A DNA stretch of 46,246 bases, taken from contig NZ_GL883077.1 of assembly GCF_000204015.1 (NCBI RefSeq), positions 1,916,027 through 1,962,272 of the forward strand. The letters run 5' to 3'. This document shows, in pieces, positions 38,244-45,071 of the stretch. Source of the stretch: Asticcacaulis biprosthecium C19. Lineage in GTDB: Bacteria > Pseudomonadota > Alphaproteobacteria > Caulobacterales > Caulobacteraceae. The notes under the pieces are model-generated. The model searched no databases. It saw only the letters and a list, made by a program, of their open reading frames with translations, and was not told where the DNA came from. The position numbers were made by a program, and so were the translations under genes. Every line of letters starts with the position of its first letter. The first letter of the stretch is position 1.

Positions 38244-38888
38244 TCATCCCTTGTGGCGCTCTCTCAGGATGTCCAGCACGGGGCCAAGACCGGTCTCGCG
38301 CGCCATCAACAGTACGCTGAGATGATACAGCAGGTCGGCGGCTTCGTTGTGTAGTTCGTCCAGATCACCGGCGCGGCCGGCCAAGGCCGTTTCCAGCCCT
38401 TCTTCGCCAACCTTCTGGGCGATCTTGGCGATCCCCTTGTGCATCAGGCGGGCGGTGTAACTATCGGCTGGTGACACGTGGGCACGCTCAGTGACCACCT
38501 TGGCGAGGTGAGCCATGAAGCCGATACCCGGCGCGTTCTCCATGCCGAAGCACGAGGTCGTCTTGGTGTGGCAGGTCGGGCCTTCCGGCCGTGCCAGCAC
38601 CAGCACGGCATCCTCGTCGCAGTCGGCCAGGACGTGGTCCAGAACCAGCACATCGCCTGAAGTTTCGCCCTTGCGCCACAGCCGGTCTTTCGAACGGGAA
38701 TAAAACACGACCTGACCACGGGTCAGGGTTTCGCGCAAGGCGTCGGCGTTCATATAGCCGAGCATCAGGACCTGAAGGGTATCGGCATGCTGGACGATAG
38801 CCGGCACCAGCCCACCGGACTTGGCGAAGTCGATGCGGGTGATGTCGTCGACGGTGAGGGGATTGGGCAGGGTGTGCTGTTCGGCCAT
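38244..38888 (-). CDS. hisIE: HisIE, phosphoribosyl-AMP cyclohydrolase / phosphoribosyl-ATP pyrophosphatase
   Basis: A 214-residue bifunctional enzyme for steps two and three of histidine synthesis. The HisI part (about 1-115) has MLGYMNADALRET, FYSRSKDRLWRKGETSG and the Zn-binding Cys90, Cys106 and Cys113 (DCDEDAV, PTCHT, SCF). The HisE part (about 120-214) has YTARLMHKGIAKIAQKVGEEGLETALA and DLLYHLSVLL, the MazG-like pyrophosphatase helix bundle. Fused HisIE is the rule in enteric operons and Bacteroidetes, while alphaproteobacteria often have separate hisE and hisI. It starts two bases after hisF and is the last gene of the operon. Confidence 0.95.
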   Translation of the reverse strand: MAEQHTLPNPLTVDDITRIDFAKSGGLVPAIVQHADTLQVLMLGYMNADALRETLTRGQVVFYSRSKDRLWRKGETSGDVLVLDHVLADCDEDAVLVLARPEGPTCHTKTTSCFGMENAPGIGFMAHLAKVVTERAHVSPADSYTARLMHKGIAKIAQKVGEEGLETALAGRAGDLDELHNEAADLLYHLSVLLMARETGLGPVLDILRERHKG

Positions 38889-38890
38889 GG

Positions 38891-39718
38891 TTACAGTCTC
38901 ACAGCTATCCCGGCCTGACGCAAGTCGCGCTTGAGGTCAGGGATGTGGATGATCTTTTTGTGAAAGACGCTGGCGGCCAGAGCGCCCGACACATCGGCCT
39001 GGTCGAACACTTCGACGAAGTGCTCTGTAGACCCGGCGCCGCCTGATGCCACCAGCGGAATGTCCAGCAGGTCGCGCACCAGTCGCAATTGCTTCAGGTC
39101 GTAACCCTTGCGCACCCCGTCCTGGTTCATGCAGTTCAGAACGATCTCGCCGGCTCCGCGGTCGCGAGCCTCGACGACCCAATCCAAAGTCCTGCGGCCC
39201 GCCTGGCGGATCTTGTCGGGATCGCCGGAATATTGGTGGACGTAATAGTCGACATTTTTGCTTGGCTGCCCCTCCTTATCCGAAAAGTGCTCAACACTTT
39301 TCGGGAGGGGCAGCGCCATTTCGCGACTATCAATACCGACCACGACGCATTGCGAACCAGCCATTTCAGCCAGTTCGTTGATCAGGTCGGGCCGTTCCAA
39401 AGCTGGCGAGTTGATCGACACCTTGTCGGCGCCGCTGTTCAGGCATTTCACTGCCTGCTCCGCCGAACGAATGCCGCCGGCGACGCAGAACGGAATGTCC
39501 AAAGCGCGGGCAATGTCGCGCACCCAGTTGTAGTCGACCGTGCGGCCTTCCGACGAGGCGGTGATGTCGTAGAGCACCAGTTCGTCGGCGCCTTCATCGC
39601 GATAGCGCAAAGCCATGTCGACGGCGTCGCCCAGGACTTCGTGTCCGACGAACTGCACGCCCTTGACGACCTTGCCGTCCTTGACGTCGAGACAGGGGAT
39701 GATGCGTCTAGCCAACAT
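38891..39718 (-). CDS. hisF: HisF, imidazole glycerol phosphate synthase cyclase subunit, with 17-residue insertion
   Basis: A 275-residue (beta/alpha)8 barrel that uses ammonia from HisH to make IGP and AICAR. Start [15 protein letters not shown] with catalytic Asp11, and Asp130 in VVVGIDS. After Asp130, residues 135-151 ([17 protein letters not shown]) are encoded by a palindromic repeat and are absent from the 258-residue E. coli enzyme, the difference being exactly 17. The insert lies in the loop after strand 5, on the catalytic face, so activity needs testing. The rest ([34 protein letters not shown]) is normal and resembles gammaproteobacterial HisF. The start is the ATG after GGAAAG. 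Confidence 0.93.
39265..39314. repeat. Palindromic repeat inserted in frame in hisF
   Basis: Fifty bases form a two-part hairpin: outer arms GCTGCCCCTC/GAGGGGCAGC, a bulge CTTAT, and inner arms CCGAAAAGTG/CACTTTTCGG around the loop CTCAA. With one more base it equals 17 codons, so the frame is kept and no stop is created. A second copy of the TTATCC-xAAAAGTG core lies at 39721-39764, inverted. Confidence 0.85.
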
Positions 39719-39720
39719 GA

Positions 39721-39764
39721 GCGCTTTCCAAAAAGTGTGACGCACTTTTTGGATAAAAAAGCGC
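39721..39764. repeat. Palindromic repeat directly before hisF (same family)
   Basis: The inner arms TCCAAAAAGTG/CACTTTTTGGA (loop TGACG) and outer arms GCGCTT/AAGCGC with an asymmetric TAAAA bulge repeat the plan of the hisF-internal element, in opposite orientation. The 3' arm on the coding strand contains GGAAAG, the only ribosome-site-like word before the hisF ATG, so the hairpin may hide it. Confidence 0.8.
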
Positions 39765-39773
39765 GTTAAAAAC

Positions 39774-39804
39774 AAAAAATGAATGTCGGCTTAACCGACA
39801 TTCA
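39774..39804 (-). terminator. Intrinsic terminator overlapping the hisA stop codon
   Basis: On the minus strand TGAATGTCGG pairs with CCGACATTCA (10 bp, 5-base loop holding the TAA stop of hisA), followed by six T residues. This is a full intrinsic terminator inside the his operon, which should reduce expression of hisF-hisIE unless ribosomes finishing hisA prevent the hairpin from forming. Confidence 0.8.
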
Positions 39805-40522
39805 AGGCCGCTTTCAGGTCGATCAGACCCTCATAGATCGCCTTGCCGACAATGGCGCCATGCACGCCCAGGGTCTTGAGTTCATACAGGTCCTCGATCG
39901 AGCGCACGCCGCCAGAGGCCTGGATGTCCAGGTCCGGACGCTTGCGGCGCAGGGCTGTCATCAGCGCCATGTTCGGGCCCATCAGCATGCCGTCACGCGA
40001 CACGTCGGTGACCAGGATGCGCTGAGCCGAGCCGACCGGATAGTAGTCCAGAACGTCCCACAGCGAGATGCCCGAGCCTTCGACCCAACCATGCAGGGCG
40101 GCGTCGAAATCGCCGTCGGCGGTCGGCAAAACATCCAGTGCCAGGGTGATCCGGTCCTTGCCAAAATCGGCCAGCCAGCCGCGGACCTCTTCCGGGTTCT
40201 TGACCGCGGCGGAACCGACGACAACGGCGGAAATGCCTTCGTCGAGCAGGGTCTGGACGTGGGCGCGTGTGCGGACGCCACCGCCGGTCTGGATCTTGGC
40301 CAGGGAGGCCTTGGCCAGCCGGCCGATCAGGTCGTGCTGCTGCGGCGAGCCGGCCTTGGCGCCGTCTAGGTCGACGATGTGCACCCACTGGGCGTTTTCG
40401 CCGTTGAACAGGCCCAGCCGCTTGAACGGATCGGAGTCGTACTTGGTGACGGCGTCGAAGCGGCCCTGCGACAGGCGCACACATTCACCGTTGATCAGGT
40501 CGATAGCGGGGTAAAGGATCAT
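39791..40522 (-). CDS. hisA: HisA, ProFAR isomerase
   Basis: A 243-residue (beta/alpha)8 barrel that isomerises the ProFAR intermediate. Catalytic Asp8 in LYPAIDLINGECVRL, the second Asp in ILVTDVSRDGML, and phosphate-binding QTGGGVRTR and ASGGVRS. The start overlaps the hisH stop by four bases. A terminator hairpin overlaps its 3' end. Length and motifs are normal. Confidence 0.95.
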   Translation of the reverse strand: MILYPAIDLINGECVRLSQGRFDAVTKYDSDPFKRLGLFNGENAQWVHIVDLDGAKAGSPQQHDLIGRLAKASLAKIQTGGGVRTRAHVQTLLDEGISAVVVGSAAVKNPEEVRGWLADFGKDRITLALDVLPTADGDFDAALHGWVEGSGISLWDVLDYYPVGSAQRILVTDVSRDGMLMGPNMALMTALRRKRPDLDIQASGGVRSIEDLYELKTLGVHGAIVGKAIYEGLIDLKAALNVG

Positions 40523-41106
40523 AGTTTCACAAAGTTTTCGAGGATTCTGGCGCCGGTGGAAGAAGACCGTTCGGGGTGGAACTGGCAGCCCCAGACCTGG
40601 CCCTTGCGGACCATGGCAGCGAAGGGTTCACCATAGGTCGCGGTCGCCAAGGTGCAATCATTGACCGGACAGACGAAGGAGTGGACGAAATAGGCATAAT
40701 CGCCATCATTGACGCCCGCCGTTAGCGCATCGTCGCGTGAGACCTCAAGCTGGTTCCAGCCCATGTGCGGCACGACGAAATCCTTCGATGCCTCCATGCG
40801 GGTCACCCGGCCGGGGATCAGCCCGAGACATTGAACATCACCTTCGTCGGAACCTTCGAACAGCAGTTGCTGGCCCAGGCATACCCCCAGCAGCGGCACA
40901 TCAAGACCGCGAATGACGTCGAACAGCCCCAACTCGTGGATACGGTTCATGGCGAAACCCGCAGCGCCGACACCCGGCAGGACGACCTTTTGGGCGGCGG
41001 CGATTTCCGCCGCGTCTGACGACAGGTGCGCGTCAACACCCAGCCGTTCCAGGGCAAACAGCACCGATGCCGTGTTGGCGCAGCCCAGTTCAATGACCGT
41101 GATCAT
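40519..41106 (-). CDS. hisH: HisH, imidazole glycerol phosphate synthase glutaminase subunit
   Basis: A 195-residue class-I glutamine amidotransferase that supplies ammonia to HisF. Nucleophile Cys76 in LGVCLGQQLLFEGS; catalytic His and Glu in QFHPERSS near residue 177. VLPGVGAAGFAM is the oxyanion strand. The start overlaps the end of the hisC'-hisB fusion (ATGA). Confidence 0.95.
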   Translation of the reverse strand: MITVIELGCANTASVLFALERLGVDAHLSSDAAEIAAAQKVVLPGVGAAGFAMNRIHELGLFDVIRGLDVPLLGVCLGQQLLFEGSDEGDVQCLGLIPGRVTRMEASKDFVVPHMGWNQLEVSRDDALTAGVNDGDYAYFVHSFVCPVNDCTLATATYGEPFAAMVRKGQVWGCQFHPERSSSTGARILENFVKL

Positions 41107-42578
41107 GCCAGCATGCCTTTGGTGGAGGGGAGGGCGTCGCCTTCGATCCGCGTAGCCTGGCGCAGGGCCCGGCCCAGTGCCTTGTAGCAGGCCTCGGTCT
41201 TGTGGTGATCGTTGCCGCCCTCGACCTCGACATGGATCGATGCGCCCAGGGTTTCTGACAGCGAACGGAAGGCGTGGCCGGTCATTTCGGTCTGATAGTC
41301 GCCGATGTGTGTCGACTGGAAGTCGCCTTTGAAAACACAGAAGGGCCGGCCGCCAAGGTCGATACTGACCTTGGCCTCGGTCTCGTCCATCGGCAGGACG
41401 AAGCCGAACCGCGCCATGCCCATGCGATCGCCCAGGGCCTGTTTCAGTGCCGACCCGAAGGCCAGCATGCAGTCCTCGACCGTGTGGTGGCCGTCGATAT
41501 GCAGGTCGCCCTCGCAGGCCAGTTGCAGCGAGAAGCCGCCGTGGGTGGCGACCTGGTCCAGCATGTGATCGAAGAAGCCGATGCCGGTCTCGACGTTGAC
41601 GGGTTTCGGCTGATCGAGATTGACCAAGACTGAGATGCGCGTCTCCTTGGTGTCGCGCGTGACTTCGCCGACGCGGGGTGGCTTGGCGTCGTCGGCGACG
41701 TCCAGCGCCTTGAGGATGCGGTTGTTGGTGGCGACATCTCCCAAGGCCAGCAGCAAGCCGGTTGGGGTGACCTGAGGCGACAGCCCCAGGCGCTTCAGGG
41801 CGGTCTGGGTGGCGATCAGGTTCTTGGGGCGCAAAAGCAGGAAAGGGCCTTCGTTCAGGTCGAACGATTCCAGTAAATTGGAAGTTTTCAGGCGTTCGCG
41901 CAACCGAGCCTGTTCACTGCGGATCAGGTCGATACGGGCTTGTACGGAAAGGGCCCGCGAAGGCGACAGGGCGCTTTCCGCGGCCCGCACTGACGGGGTC
42001 GGCAGCGGGTGCGGCTCGCAATACTTCAGCAATCCCTGAAGTGTCTTGGTGTTGGCGATCAGGGCGCCAACTCTGGCGCCGGACATGCCGAACAGGAAGG
42101 ACATGCTCTTCAGCACGATGACATTGGGCTCGCTGGTCGCCAGTTCGATCAGCGACCCGTCCGAGGCGTCGGCGTAGCTTTCGTCGATGACCAGCAGGGT
42201 CGGGAAGATGTCGACCGCCAGGGTGCGGGCGGCGATCAGGTCCAGCGCGTGGCCATCCGACTGACTGGGGTTGTCAATCAGGTAGAAGCCCCCACCGCGT
42301 GTCAGGGTACCGGTTTCCAGCGGCTTGCGGATGGTCAGGTTATAAACGCTGCACAGGTCCTCGATATAGTGGTCCTGGCCGGCCCAGACGAACTCATGGC
42401 CATGGACGCGCAGGCGGCGCATCAGGATTTCCATGCCGTGCGACGCGCCGCGGGTGACGATCAACTGATGTGGCTCGACACCGTAGAAGGCGGCCATGCG
42501 CTCACGCAGGGGCTCGAGCGAGGGCGGGATGGATTCGAGGCCGGCGCCACCTAGAGATGAGAAAGGGGAGTTGAACAT
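41103..42578 (-). CDS. hisB: Degenerate HisC domain fused to HisB (imidazoleglycerol-phosphate dehydratase)
   Basis: A 491-residue fusion. Residues 302-491 are a complete IGP dehydratase: RDTKETRISV, GIGFFDHMLDQ, the two metal-binding HHTVED and DHHKTE motifs, LPMDE and DALPSTKGML. Residues 1-300 align along their length with HisC (histidinol-phosphate aminotransferase): VTRGASHGMEIL, LVIDESYAD and ARVGALIA...EPHPLPTPSVRAAESALSP. But the PLP lysine is Phe161 (KSMSFLFGMSG where HisC has TLSKAFALAG), the cofactor Asn is Gln106, the substrate Arg of the C-terminal strand is about Leu276, and some 35 N-terminal residues are missing, because hisD ends two bases before the start. Asp132, Tyr135 and Arg169 remain. 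So the dehydratase should work, but the N-terminal domain cannot be a normal transaminase. The usual HisB fusion (E. coli) has a phosphatase there instead. Confidence 0.88.
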   Translation of the reverse strand: MFNSPFSSLGGAGLESIPPSLEPLRERMAAFYGVEPHQLIVTRGASHGMEILMRRLRVHGHEFVWAGQDHYIEDLCSVYNLTIRKPLETGTLTRGGGFYLIDNPSQSDGHALDLIAARTLAVDIFPTLLVIDESYADASDGSLIELATSEPNVIVLKSMSFLFGMSGARVGALIANTKTLQGLLKYCEPHPLPTPSVRAAESALSPSRALSVQARIDLIRSEQARLRERLKTSNLLESFDLNEGPFLLLRPKNLIATQTALKRLGLSPQVTPTGLLLALGDVATNNRILKALDVADDAKPPRVGEVTRDTKETRISVLVNLDQPKPVNVETGIGFFDHMLDQVATHGGFSLQLACEGDLHIDGHHTVEDCMLAFGSALKQALGDRMGMARFGFVLPMDETEAKVSIDLGGRPFCVFKGDFQSTHIGDYQTEMTGHAFRSLSETLGASIHVEVEGGNDHHKTEACYKALGRALRQATRIEGDALPSTKGMLA

Positions 42579-42580
42579 CT

Positions 42581-43879
42581 CTACACTTCCAATCTGAAGT
42601 CGGCCGCCAGTGCGTGCGCCTCAAGCCCCTCCAGCCGGGCCAGGCGGGCGGCGGCGGGGGCAATGGCGGCCGCACCTTCGCGCGTGGCCTTCTGCACGAC
42701 GAAGCTGGTCAGGAAGGACCGCACGGTGATGCCGTCATAGGACCGGGCAGCGCCGTCGGTCGGCAGGACGTGGCTGGGGCCTGCGGCATAGTCGCCGAAG
42801 GTTTCGGCGGCATAGGTGCCGGCAAAAATCGTCCCGGCGGCGGTCAGCAGGGGCACGAGGGCGTCGACGTCTTCGATCTGGATGGCCAGGTGCTCCGGAC
42901 CGTACAGGTTTGAGACTTCGGCAGCTTCCGATGTCCCGGAGACGATGAAGACGCGCGCCTGATCCAGTGACGCCTTGGCGATCGTCGCACGCGGCAGGCG
43001 CTCGACCTGAATGGCGACTTCGGCGGCAATGCGTTGCGCGATATCGGCGGACAGGGCGACCAGGATGACCTGAGCGTCGGAGTCGTGTTCGGCCTGGCTG
43101 AGCAGGTCGGCGGCGACCAGTTTCACATTGGCGGTGCCGTCGGCGATGACCAGCAATTCCGACGGACCCGCCGGCATGTCGATGGCCAGGCCCGAGATGC
43201 GCTCGGTGGCGTACTTCTTGGCTTCGGTGACGTACTTGTTGCCGGGGCCGAACAGCTTGTCGGCGGCGGGGACGCCTTCCAGGATCCCCAGCGCCATGGC
43301 GGCGATGCCGTGGGCGCCGCCGACTCTCCAGATGGCGTCCAGTCTCGAGGTCGCCGCGCAGGCGATCATCATCGGGTGGAGGGAGCCGTCTTTGGCCGGG
43401 GGCGTGATGCAGACGCGGTTGGGTACGCCTGCCACAGCGGCGGGTACCGCGGTCATAATCAGGGTTGAAAACAGTGGCGCCAGGCCGCCAGGGATATACA
43501 GGCCGGCTGTGGTGATCGGGCGATAGAGGCGTTGCAGCGACAATCCCGGTTTCGGGGAAATGACTGGGCCGTCGCCGGGCAGTTCTGCCTGCTGGAAGGC
43601 GCGCACGTTCTCGGCGGCCAGTTCCATGGCGGCGAGATCCTCGGGCGACATTTGCGCCCGGGCGGCGTCAACCGTTGCCGCATTAAGCTCCAGGCGGTCG
43701 GGGGCATGGCCATCCAGCTTGACGGCCCAGTCGCTCAAACCGTCAAAGCCGCGGGCCTCGATGTCGTCGAAGATGGTGCGCACACGCGCCAGCACCGTCG
43801 GATCGCGGCGGTTCTCCGGGCGGGCCAGGGCGGCCTTGCGGCCGGCCCGGTCCAGCTCTTTCCAAATGAATGTCCGCAT
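42581..43879 (-). CDS. hisD: HisD, histidinol dehydrogenase
   Basis: A 432-residue zinc enzyme that oxidises histidinol to histidine in two steps. Typical segments: ITTAGLYIPGGLAPLFST, GPGNKYVTEAKK, DMPAGPSELLVIAD, LLSQAEHDSDAQVIL, YGPEHLAIQIE with the catalytic Glu-His pair, and GPSHVLPTDGAARS. It starts at the base where hisG ends (TGATG), and a GTG one codon earlier is possible. The stop lies two bases before the fusion start. Confidence 0.96.
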   Translation of the reverse strand: MRTFIWKELDRAGRKAALARPENRRDPTVLARVRTIFDDIEARGFDGLSDWAVKLDGHAPDRLELNAATVDAARAQMSPEDLAAMELAAENVRAFQQAELPGDGPVISPKPGLSLQRLYRPITTAGLYIPGGLAPLFSTLIMTAVPAAVAGVPNRVCITPPAKDGSLHPMMIACAATSRLDAIWRVGGAHGIAAMALGILEGVPAADKLFGPGNKYVTEAKKYATERISGLAIDMPAGPSELLVIADGTANVKLVAADLLSQAEHDSDAQVILVALSADIAQRIAAEVAIQVERLPRATIAKASLDQARVFIVSGTSEAAEVSNLYGPEHLAIQIEDVDALVPLLTAAGTIFAGTYAAETFGDYAAGPSHVLPTDGAARSYDGITVRSFLTSFVVQKATREGAAAIAPAAARLARLEGLEAHALAADFRLEV

Positions 43880-44757
43880 CACGGCATCATCTTTTCGATC
43901 GGCAGGACCAGAATGGCCGAGGCACCGGCGGCTTTCAGGCGGTCCAGGGTTTCCCAGAAGACGCTTTCGTCACAGACGGCATGGATGGCGACCATGGACG
44001 GATCGACCAGATTCATGATGGTCGGGCTGCCGGAGCCGGGGATCAGGTTGATGATCTCGTCGAGATGATCGCGCGGCGCGTTCATCATGACGTATTTGGC
44101 GCCGGTCGACTTGGTGACGCCGTCGAAGCGGCGCACGACCATGTCGTAGATGTGTGCCAGGTCAGGCTGGGGCGCGTGGGGCGCCTTGATCAGCACGGCT
44201 TCGGATTTGAGTACCAGTTCGACCGGCTTGAGGTTGTTGACCTCCAGGGTGGTGCCGGTGGAGACCAGGTCGCAGATGGCGTCGGCAATGTGCATGCGTG
44301 GCGCGACTTCGACGCCGCCACGCATTTCGACGATATCGGCGGTGATGCCGTTATCGGACAGCCAGGCTTTCAGGATGTTCGGATAGGAGGTGGCGATGCG
44401 CTTGCCGGCGACGCTTTGCGGGCCCTGGTAGTCGAACCCGATCGGTACGGCCAGCTTCAGGGTGCACTTGCCGAAGCCCAGGCGCATTACGATGATCTCC
44501 TCCAGGTCCTTGTCCGGGAAGTGCTCCTTCAGAACGTTGTAACCGACGATGCCCAGTTCAGCGACATTGTCGTCGACGAAGGTGGGGATATCGTCGTCGC
44601 GTACCCGCAGCAGATCGATTGGATGATTTTCGATCCGGTACAGCAGTTCGTTGGCGCCGCGGATGGCGCGCAGGCCGGCGCCAGTGATCAGCTCCAGTGA
44701 GCGTTCGGCCAGGCGGCCCGACTTTTGTACGGCAATGCGGAGGCGGGGTTCGGTCAT
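43879..44757 (-). CDS. hisG: HisG, ATP phosphoribosyltransferase (long form)
   Basis: A 292-residue enzyme for the first, feedback-controlled step of histidine synthesis. IAVQKSGRLAERSLELI and VADICDLVSTGTTLE-type motifs (here ADAICDLVSTGTTLEVNNL) are present, and the C-terminal 70 residues (SPTIMNLVDP, ESVFWETLDRLKAAGASAILVLPIEKM) form the ACT-like regulatory domain of HisG-L, which is hexameric, is inhibited by histidine and needs no HisZ. Starts two bases after the regulator gene. Confidence 0.95.
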   Translation of the reverse strand: MTEPRLRIAVQKSGRLAERSLELITGAGLRAIRGANELLYRIENHPIDLLRVRDDDIPTFVDDNVAELGIVGYNVLKEHFPDKDLEEIIVMRLGFGKCTLKLAVPIGFDYQGPQSVAGKRIATSYPNILKAWLSDNGITADIVEMRGGVEVAPRMHIADAICDLVSTGTTLEVNNLKPVELVLKSEAVLIKAPHAPQPDLAHIYDMVVRRFDGVTKSTGAKYVMMNAPRDHLDEIINLIPGSGSPTIMNLVDPSMVAIHAVCDESVFWETLDRLKAAGASAILVLPIEKMMP

Positions 44758-44759
44758 CT

Positions 44760-45071
44760 TCAGATCTTCTTATCGGGTTTCATGCGGTCGAGTACCGCGC
44801 GGTAGCCCTGGTGGGGCATGTTGTTCAAAAAATTGGCGACGCGGGTGACGGTGGTGGTCGACACGCCGGTCTGGTCGGAAATCTGGCGGTAGGAGAGTTC
44901 GCCGTCATCCAGCAGCCAGGCGACCCGGAACCGTTCCGCCAAAGCCCGGATCTCCTGCGGGGTGCACAGGTCGGTCAGGAAGTCCTTGACCTCGTCCTGG
45001 CTTTTCAACTGCAGGAAGGCTTGATGGAGGAGGGTGATATCGTCCTTGAGGCTGGGATGGTCGGCTGCCAT
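44760..45071 (-). CDS. TrpR/YerC-family regulator of the his operon
   Basis: A 103-residue member of the TrpR/YerC (YecD) family. Residues 36-78 (TPQEIRALAERFRVAWLLDDGELSYRQIS...GVSTTTVTRVANFL) are a helix-turn-helix like the one of TrpR. It heads the his operon, two bases before hisG, and a perfect palindrome lies 17 bases upstream of its start. TrpR-family proteins in this position (called HisR in some predicted regulons) are proposed to sense histidine, and this one probably represses its own operon. The effector is inference. Confidence 0.82.
   Translation of the reverse strand: MAADHPSLKDDITLLHQAFLQLKSQDEVKDFLTDLCTPQEIRALAERFRVAWLLDDGELSYRQISDQTGVSTTTVTRVANFLNNMPHQGYRAVLDRMKPDKKI

Follow-up and report, generated by a model that had tools for sequence, protein, structure and literature searches.

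A HisC-derived domain without its catalytic residues, fused to HisB in the histidine operon of Asticcacaulis and probably retained as a folded module

Fused enzymes of histidine biosynthesis and pseudoenzymes are both known. In the accessible parts of a 2007 study (PMC1963479) and a 2023 review (PMC10138114), seven his genes are named as fused and hisC is absent from the list; HisIE, HisNB or related fusions are mentioned in the accessible parts of three further papers (PMC4921024, PMC8305728, PMC11237513). The closest described system is HisNB, the bifunctional histidinol-phosphatase/HisB of gammaproteobacteria, in which a C-terminal HisB follows a partner from the same pathway in the same operon place as in the fusion described here. 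HisNB is also the top NCBIfam match of the HisB half of the Asticcacaulis protein. Where HisNB has a HAD phosphatase, this protein carries a partner of the HisC fold, which in the host genus lacks its catalytic residues. No report of a HisC-HisB fusion was found among the papers listed by searches of open-licence literature (a report outside this set is possible), and neither the fusion nor its conserved dead form appears to be described there. The original prediction knew of phosphatase-HisB (HisNB) fusions only; intact HisC-HisB fusions proved frequent in related families and present in other phyla.

Catalytically dead homologues retained under selection are exemplified by the trypanosome prozymes of AdoMetDC and deoxyhypusine synthase, pseudoenzymes that activate their own active paralogues. 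The dead HisC half resembles them in being a dead homologue under selection and differs in its fusion partner, which is the enzyme one step earlier in the pathway.

The window, i.e. the whole stretch of 46,246 nucleotides of Asticcacaulis biprosthecium C19 that was analysed, contains a his cluster whose genes lie on one strand in the order TrpR-like regulator, hisG, hisD, fusion gene, hisH, hisA, hisF and hisIE (Table 1). The fusion gene reads from 42578 to 41103 on the minus strand and encodes 491 aa, while the plus strand of the same span is broken by stop codons. It starts 2 bases past the end of hisD and overlaps hisH by 4 bases. The gene order bears out the expectation that the fusion sits in the operon slot of separate hisC and hisB genes. 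Pfam recognized two domains in its product, Aminotran_1_2 (residues 100-251, E 6.8e-16) and IGPD (residues 331-472, E 3.9e-56).

Table 1. Coordinates of the fusion gene, its domains and key residues, and the other genes of the his cluster in the window.
Feature	Position	Strand	Basis
TrpR-like regulator (YerC/YecD family), cluster gene no. 1	44760..45071	-	TIGR02531, above cut-off
hisG, with HisG C-terminal domain	43879..44757	-	Pfam, NCBIfam
hisD	42581..43882	-	Pfam, NCBIfam
pseudoHisC-HisB fusion gene	41103..42578	-	ORF, 491 codons + stop; Pfam + NCBIfam; 24/25 genomes of host genus
HisC-fold domain, residues 1-298, without N-terminal arm and PLP lysine	41685..42578	-	
Gln106 in place of Asn157	42261..42263	-	alignment
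Phe161, codon TTC, replacing the PLP lysine (E. coli K214)	42096..42098	-	sequence, alignments
Arg169, kept, equivalent to E. coli R222	42072..42074	-	alignment, genus-wide residue count
Leu276 in place of substrate Arg335	41751..41753	-	alignment
HisB (imidazoleglycerol-phosphate dehydratase), residues 299-491, intact	41106..41684	-	
hisH	40519..41106	-	TIGR01855
hisA	39791..40522	-	TIGR00007
hisF, ORF as listed, contains in-frame palindromic insert	38891..39775	-	TIGR00735
hisIE	38244..38888	-	NF002747

The hisF gene of the same cluster carries an in-frame palindromic repeat of the type CGAAAAGTG-n5-CACTTTTCGG at 39280-39304, with a second copy at 39728-39752. The palindrome lies within some 20 inserted residues that follow the motif DSRE. 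A hisF match was obtained in 24 genus members, of which 6 carry an insert at that site; the other 18 lack one (255 aa). The window has the complete palindrome; two other members tested match half of it only, and it is missing from L313, whose insert differs. Exact sites number four in the window genome and none in the control. Palindromic elements that code for protein are known from Rickettsia, and the hisF repeat may be likened to them.

The HisB half of the fusion passes the HisB model NF002111 (238.5 against a cut-off of 231) and matches PF00475 (E 3.9e-56); the HisNB model NF003937 matches this part alone and stays below its cut-off (278.8 against 443). In alignment A1 (19 rows, the window among them) the invariant HisB columns cover the conserved His, Glu, Asp and Lys positions, the window row included. 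The N-terminal half has the fold of a type I aminotransferase of the HisC kind, as found by fold comparison, in which the HisC chains of Klebsiella and E. coli align from residue 45-48 onward only. Against the HisC model TIGR01141 the fusion scored 89 bits, far below the cut-off of 276.55. Residue equivalences, in E. coli numbering, were obtained via alignment with intact HisC-HisB relatives. This alignment and the family models agree with the original prediction of a HisC half without catalytic residues joined to an intact HisB: the three substitutions at the lysine, asparagine and arginine places (Phe161, Gln106 and Leu276) are as stated there, as is the retention of Asp132, Tyr135 and Arg169, to which Ser160 can be added. 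The list of losses grew by Tyr55, the ring-stacking aromatic residue (E. coli Tyr110) and the N-terminal arm. Thus, unlike HisC of E. coli (1FG3) and Klebsiella (7SZP), the dead half lacks the arm, the lysine, the asparagine, Arg335, Tyr55 and the stacking aromatic. E. coli R222, the counterpart of Arg169, is taken by us to be a contact to the PLP phosphate.

The fusion is present in 24 of the 25 genomes of the genus. The one genome without it, G004 (87% complete), lacks a hisF match too, so its his operon is probably unassembled. Lysine is absent from the Lys214 place in all 24 fusions, where Phe (13 genomes) or Tyr (11 genomes) is found instead; Phe161 is thus no sequencing error. A sequencing or assembly artefact, a frameshift or a wrong reading frame is excluded for practical purposes, as the 24 genomes concur, TTC differs from both lysine codons at all three positions, and nothing was found in favour of such an explanation. 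One further lysine, Lys157 (42108-42110), lies four residues ahead of the lost PLP lysine, is invariant in the 24 genus members, and stands where the usual RTLSK strand has arginine. It probably represents a conservative change from Arg to Lys rather than a relocated catalytic lysine. Its invariance and the aromatic residue in the lysine place in 24 of 24 members would suit a HisC half that had acquired a new, lysine-free catalytic function, for example via Lys157 or via the conserved aromatic; however, the PLP ring contacts and the substrate arginine were lost together with the lysine, and we regard such a function as highly improbable.

To place the gene among its relatives, an intact fusion was used as the query (threshold E 1e-60), and hits came from 116 of 299 genomes at the level of the order, 18 of 385 at that of the class and 67 of 398 at that of the phylum; among the phylum-level matches listed, the majority span HisC alone or HisB alone. 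From the fetched loci 132 fusions were classed as intact (36, defined by the presence of Lys214), dead (62), eroded (22) or HisD-HisB (12); this excludes 12 HisB-level matches of the 116 order genomes, whose loci were not fetched, and four genomes with contig ends or a broken hisD (G218, G271, G294 and G300). All 36 intact forms have Tyr55, Asp184, Tyr187, Ser213, Arg222 and Arg335. Such fusions, e.g. those of a Marinicaulis MAG (L202) and two Robiginitomaculum MAGs (L203, L204), resemble the window protein in domain order and in homology throughout, and the classed ones lie between hisD and hisH, as in the window; they differ from it in keeping the catalytic residues. The HisD-HisB fusions are L035, L038, L174, L182, L187, L191, L193, L194 and L197-L200, with Pfam confirmation for L035.

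Among named GTDB genomes, the best 80 of 592 stretches contained at least 11 HisC-HisB single frames, including two from Bacteroidales, one from Gemmatimonadales and one from an Actinobacteria metagenome genome. These four (L206, L207, L209 and L219) are perhaps separate fusion events; in L207 the pattern for the Lys motif found no match. In a plasmid collection with 82 matching records, the 30 listed are gammaproteobacterial, with hisC and hisB separate or unannotated.

The history of the fusion was followed in two trees. In the HisB tree (152 rows; outgroup of four HisBs of a different type in the same family, assumed to be free-standing), the dead, eroded and HisD-HisB forms are nested among the intact fusions, and the HisD-HisB state accounts for two changes. 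In the full-length tree (56 rows, thinned by hand), 28 of the 61 classed arm-less dead forms make up one clade (support 100/100), whose members come from the host genus, Brevundimonas (g3), g10, f3 and one f5 genome. Its nearest intact relative is L105 (support 91/80). L105 comes from genome G161, coded as g3 (Brevundimonas), in which a HisC-HisB fusion with intact lysine occurs together with a standalone HisC. Multiple deaths among the arm-less forms, at which the HisB-only tree had hinted (up to five changes), were rejected on the single clade that the full-length tree gives for the 28 rows. Separate losses are seen in L107, where Lys was replaced by Ser and the arm was retained, and in the eroded f4 group. 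The window gene, with its HisC-homologous domain upstream of HisB and its place between hisD and hisH, groups with the intact fusions. The trees support a descent from a HisC-HisB ancestor that would have had its catalytic residues, one lineage then losing the arm and the catalytic set and founding the dead clade to which the host genus belongs. Elsewhere hardly more than a segment resembling the HisC small domain was left, or HisD was joined to HisB. In the eroded f4 forms (and one f90 form) BLAST detected no sequence match to HisC; a profile of their 184-231 N-terminal residues, however long in each form, matched columns 231-355, the HisC small domain (hhalign probability 93.5%, E 2.3e-7). 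The AlphaFold model of the eroded Woodsholea maritima form (A3) has a pLDDT mostly below 60 in its N-terminal part, too poor to confirm the small-domain match.

Selection was assessed with codon models (MGK+F3X4, IQ-TREE). Within the genus, omega was 0.086 for the dead half, 0.053 for HisB and 0.106 for the standalone HisC (24 genomes each), and 0.072, 0.099 and 0.044 for HisD, HisH and HisA, respectively (23 genomes each), synonymous sites being partly saturated across the whole genus tree. Fixing omega at 1 for the dead half (with kappa fixed at 2) was worse by 1124.5 log-likelihood units. Pairwise counting was in agreement (17 of 17 pairs usable), with a mean of 0.073 for the dead half against 0.040 for HisB. 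By segment, omega in the dead half ranged from 0.058 to 0.117 and was low in all five segments; residues 64-103 and 224-243 are its most variable stretches. The corresponding values for the N-terminal part and HisB were 0.149 and 0.062 in Brevundimonas, 0.258 and 0.110 in f3, 0.124 and 0.063 in g34, 0.306 and 0.066 in the eroded g37, and 0.077 and 0.044 in the intact f4 fusions (g31, g43 and g49). These values show that purifying selection on the dead half in the genus is of about the same strength as on the working his enzymes, unlike in some sister lineages, where it is looser. Loss of the catalytic residues is combined with continued purifying selection on the domain, as in a pseudoenzyme. 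The original prediction had left a kept non-catalytic role (allosteric, scaffold or channel) and slow decay side by side; for the genus a kept role is favoured (0.086 against 0.106 for the standalone HisC), and simple relaxed decay, which holds in several sister lineages, is disfavoured by the codon models.

The remnant of the cup for the PLP phosphate follows a similar distribution. Within the genus the loop RGAS is found in 23 of 24 fusions, the serine in 24 and the arginine in 23, with L025 (genome G005) as the single member without the cup. In Brevundimonas the serine and the arginine are each present in 23 of 23 members, but LT, VT or AT replaces AS in the loop, and in f3 the arginine has given way to proline in 12 of 12. 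Cup retention goes with the strength of constraint on the dead half, a correlation across three groups only.

A second transaminase, which the original prediction held to be required by the cell, was found in the window genome as a standalone HisC (G000:C2:896868-897914, 320.6 bits). All 24 fusion-bearing genomes of the genus encode one above the cut-off, with the SK (Lys) motif in each, and we infer from family score and motif that these enzymes would carry out the transamination of step 7. Where the fused HisC is dead, eroded or absent (HisD-HisB), 93 of 96 genomes have a standalone HisC above the cut-off; of the remaining three, G430 (272.1 bits) and G144 (275.6 bits) lie just below it, and in G338 (65% complete) none was found. 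By contrast, the fused HisC is the sole one above the cut-off in 28 of the 36 genomes with an intact fusion, the other 8 having another; one genome besides these 8, G556, has a second HisC match that stays below the cut-off (242.2). Fisher's test of the association gives p 3e-18, although related genomes are non-independent, and a phylogenetically controlled test had no power, with 2 independent pairs on well supported (starred) branches and 6 on all branches. We read the presence of a second HisC as rendering the fused HisC dispensable, with few independent transitions behind this reading.

In G033 (C6:70590-71642) and G085 (C17:59829-60881), which carry a dead fusion and a HisD-HisB fusion, respectively, the standalone hisC follows hisIE directly at the end of the his operon, and in several further f3 genomes hisC lies a few kilobases away from the fusion gene. 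A 199-aa gene upstream of the standalone hisC found no match in Pfam, and its assignment as a chorismate mutase was dropped on that account.

HisC enzymes form dimers whose subunits share their active sites, and the HisB and HisC steps are consecutive. Together with the co-occurrence of fusion and standalone HisC in 24 of 24 genus genomes, this would be compatible with a mixed dimer, in which the standalone HisC is recruited or stabilised by the dead half for the handover of imidazole-acetol phosphate (IAP) from HisB. We consider this very unlikely: the N-terminal arm and Tyr55, which presumably contribute to the active site of the partner subunit, are lost, residues 64-103 are among the most variable, and identity between the dead half and the standalone HisC is about 28%. 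Channelling of IAP to the HisC half of the fusion itself is unlikely as well, because that half should not transaminate.

The dead half might also be useless and passively locked in, HisB having no good start of its own, so that the domain ahead of it could be shortened or exchanged but not simply lost. In 123 of the 132 members at least 184 in-frame residues precede HisB (with the frame set from hisD or fused to hisD; in the other 9 the start is unset), the eroded f4 forms still retain their HisC-small-domain-like stretch, and replacement by a HisD-HisB fusion occurred in the two changes on the tree. Against this stands the omega of the dead half in the genus, which is below that of the standalone HisC and below the 0.12-0.31 of the relaxed-looking lineages. 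In one column near the domain border, 12 of the 24 genus members show a start-type codon (ATG in 9), with a purine-rich stretch upstream in 8, so escape from such a lock-in looks possible in part of the genus, where HisB might additionally be made alone, judging from these codons. No internal HisB start common to all 24 members was found, the best column reaching 13 of 24, and the window fusion falls outside the clear cases. Passive lock-in, with a sequence kept just well enough to avoid misfolding, is an improbable account.

We consider it likely that the N-terminal half is a retained pseudoenzyme domain, derived from HisC, fused to a working HisB and kept as a folded module with a structural or regulatory role. 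The HisB half would perform step 6, the other half being a pseudoenzyme that would derive from the enzyme of step 7, and transamination would have been handed over to the standalone HisC. HisB of this lineage would depend on the folded module for its folding, assembly or solubility. HisB of a plant forms a 24-mer with its N-terminal sheet on the outside, according to the accessible part of PMC10978614, and by this precedent the dead half would lie on the outer surface of the assembly. The remnant of the old PLP-phosphate cup could, speculatively, bind a phosphate-bearing ligand. On the other hand, purifying selection may act merely for solubility of the fused chain, and the domain is not required by HisB in general, since sister lineages shed most of it.

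A more specific proposal, which we put forward tentatively and think doubtful, has the dead half cap the HisB 24-mer as a regulatory domain that senses a ligand, and thus as an allosteric domain whose origin would be the enzyme of the following step. It is conceivable, at similarly modest odds, that the cup remnant (RGAS, Ser160 and Arg169) together with Asp132 and Tyr135 would bind a phosphorylated histidine intermediate and thereby tune HisB. If true, such a cap would be new for IGPD, as the authors of PMC10978614 state, in its accessible part, that they are aware of no cooperative regulation reported for any IGPD.

Fusions of his genes are a standard model for pathway evolution. The intact, the dead but conserved and the eroded forms, and those replaced by HisD-HisB, stand side by side as a natural series, which allows testing at what point a fused enzyme half can lose its function and what keeps a dead half in place.
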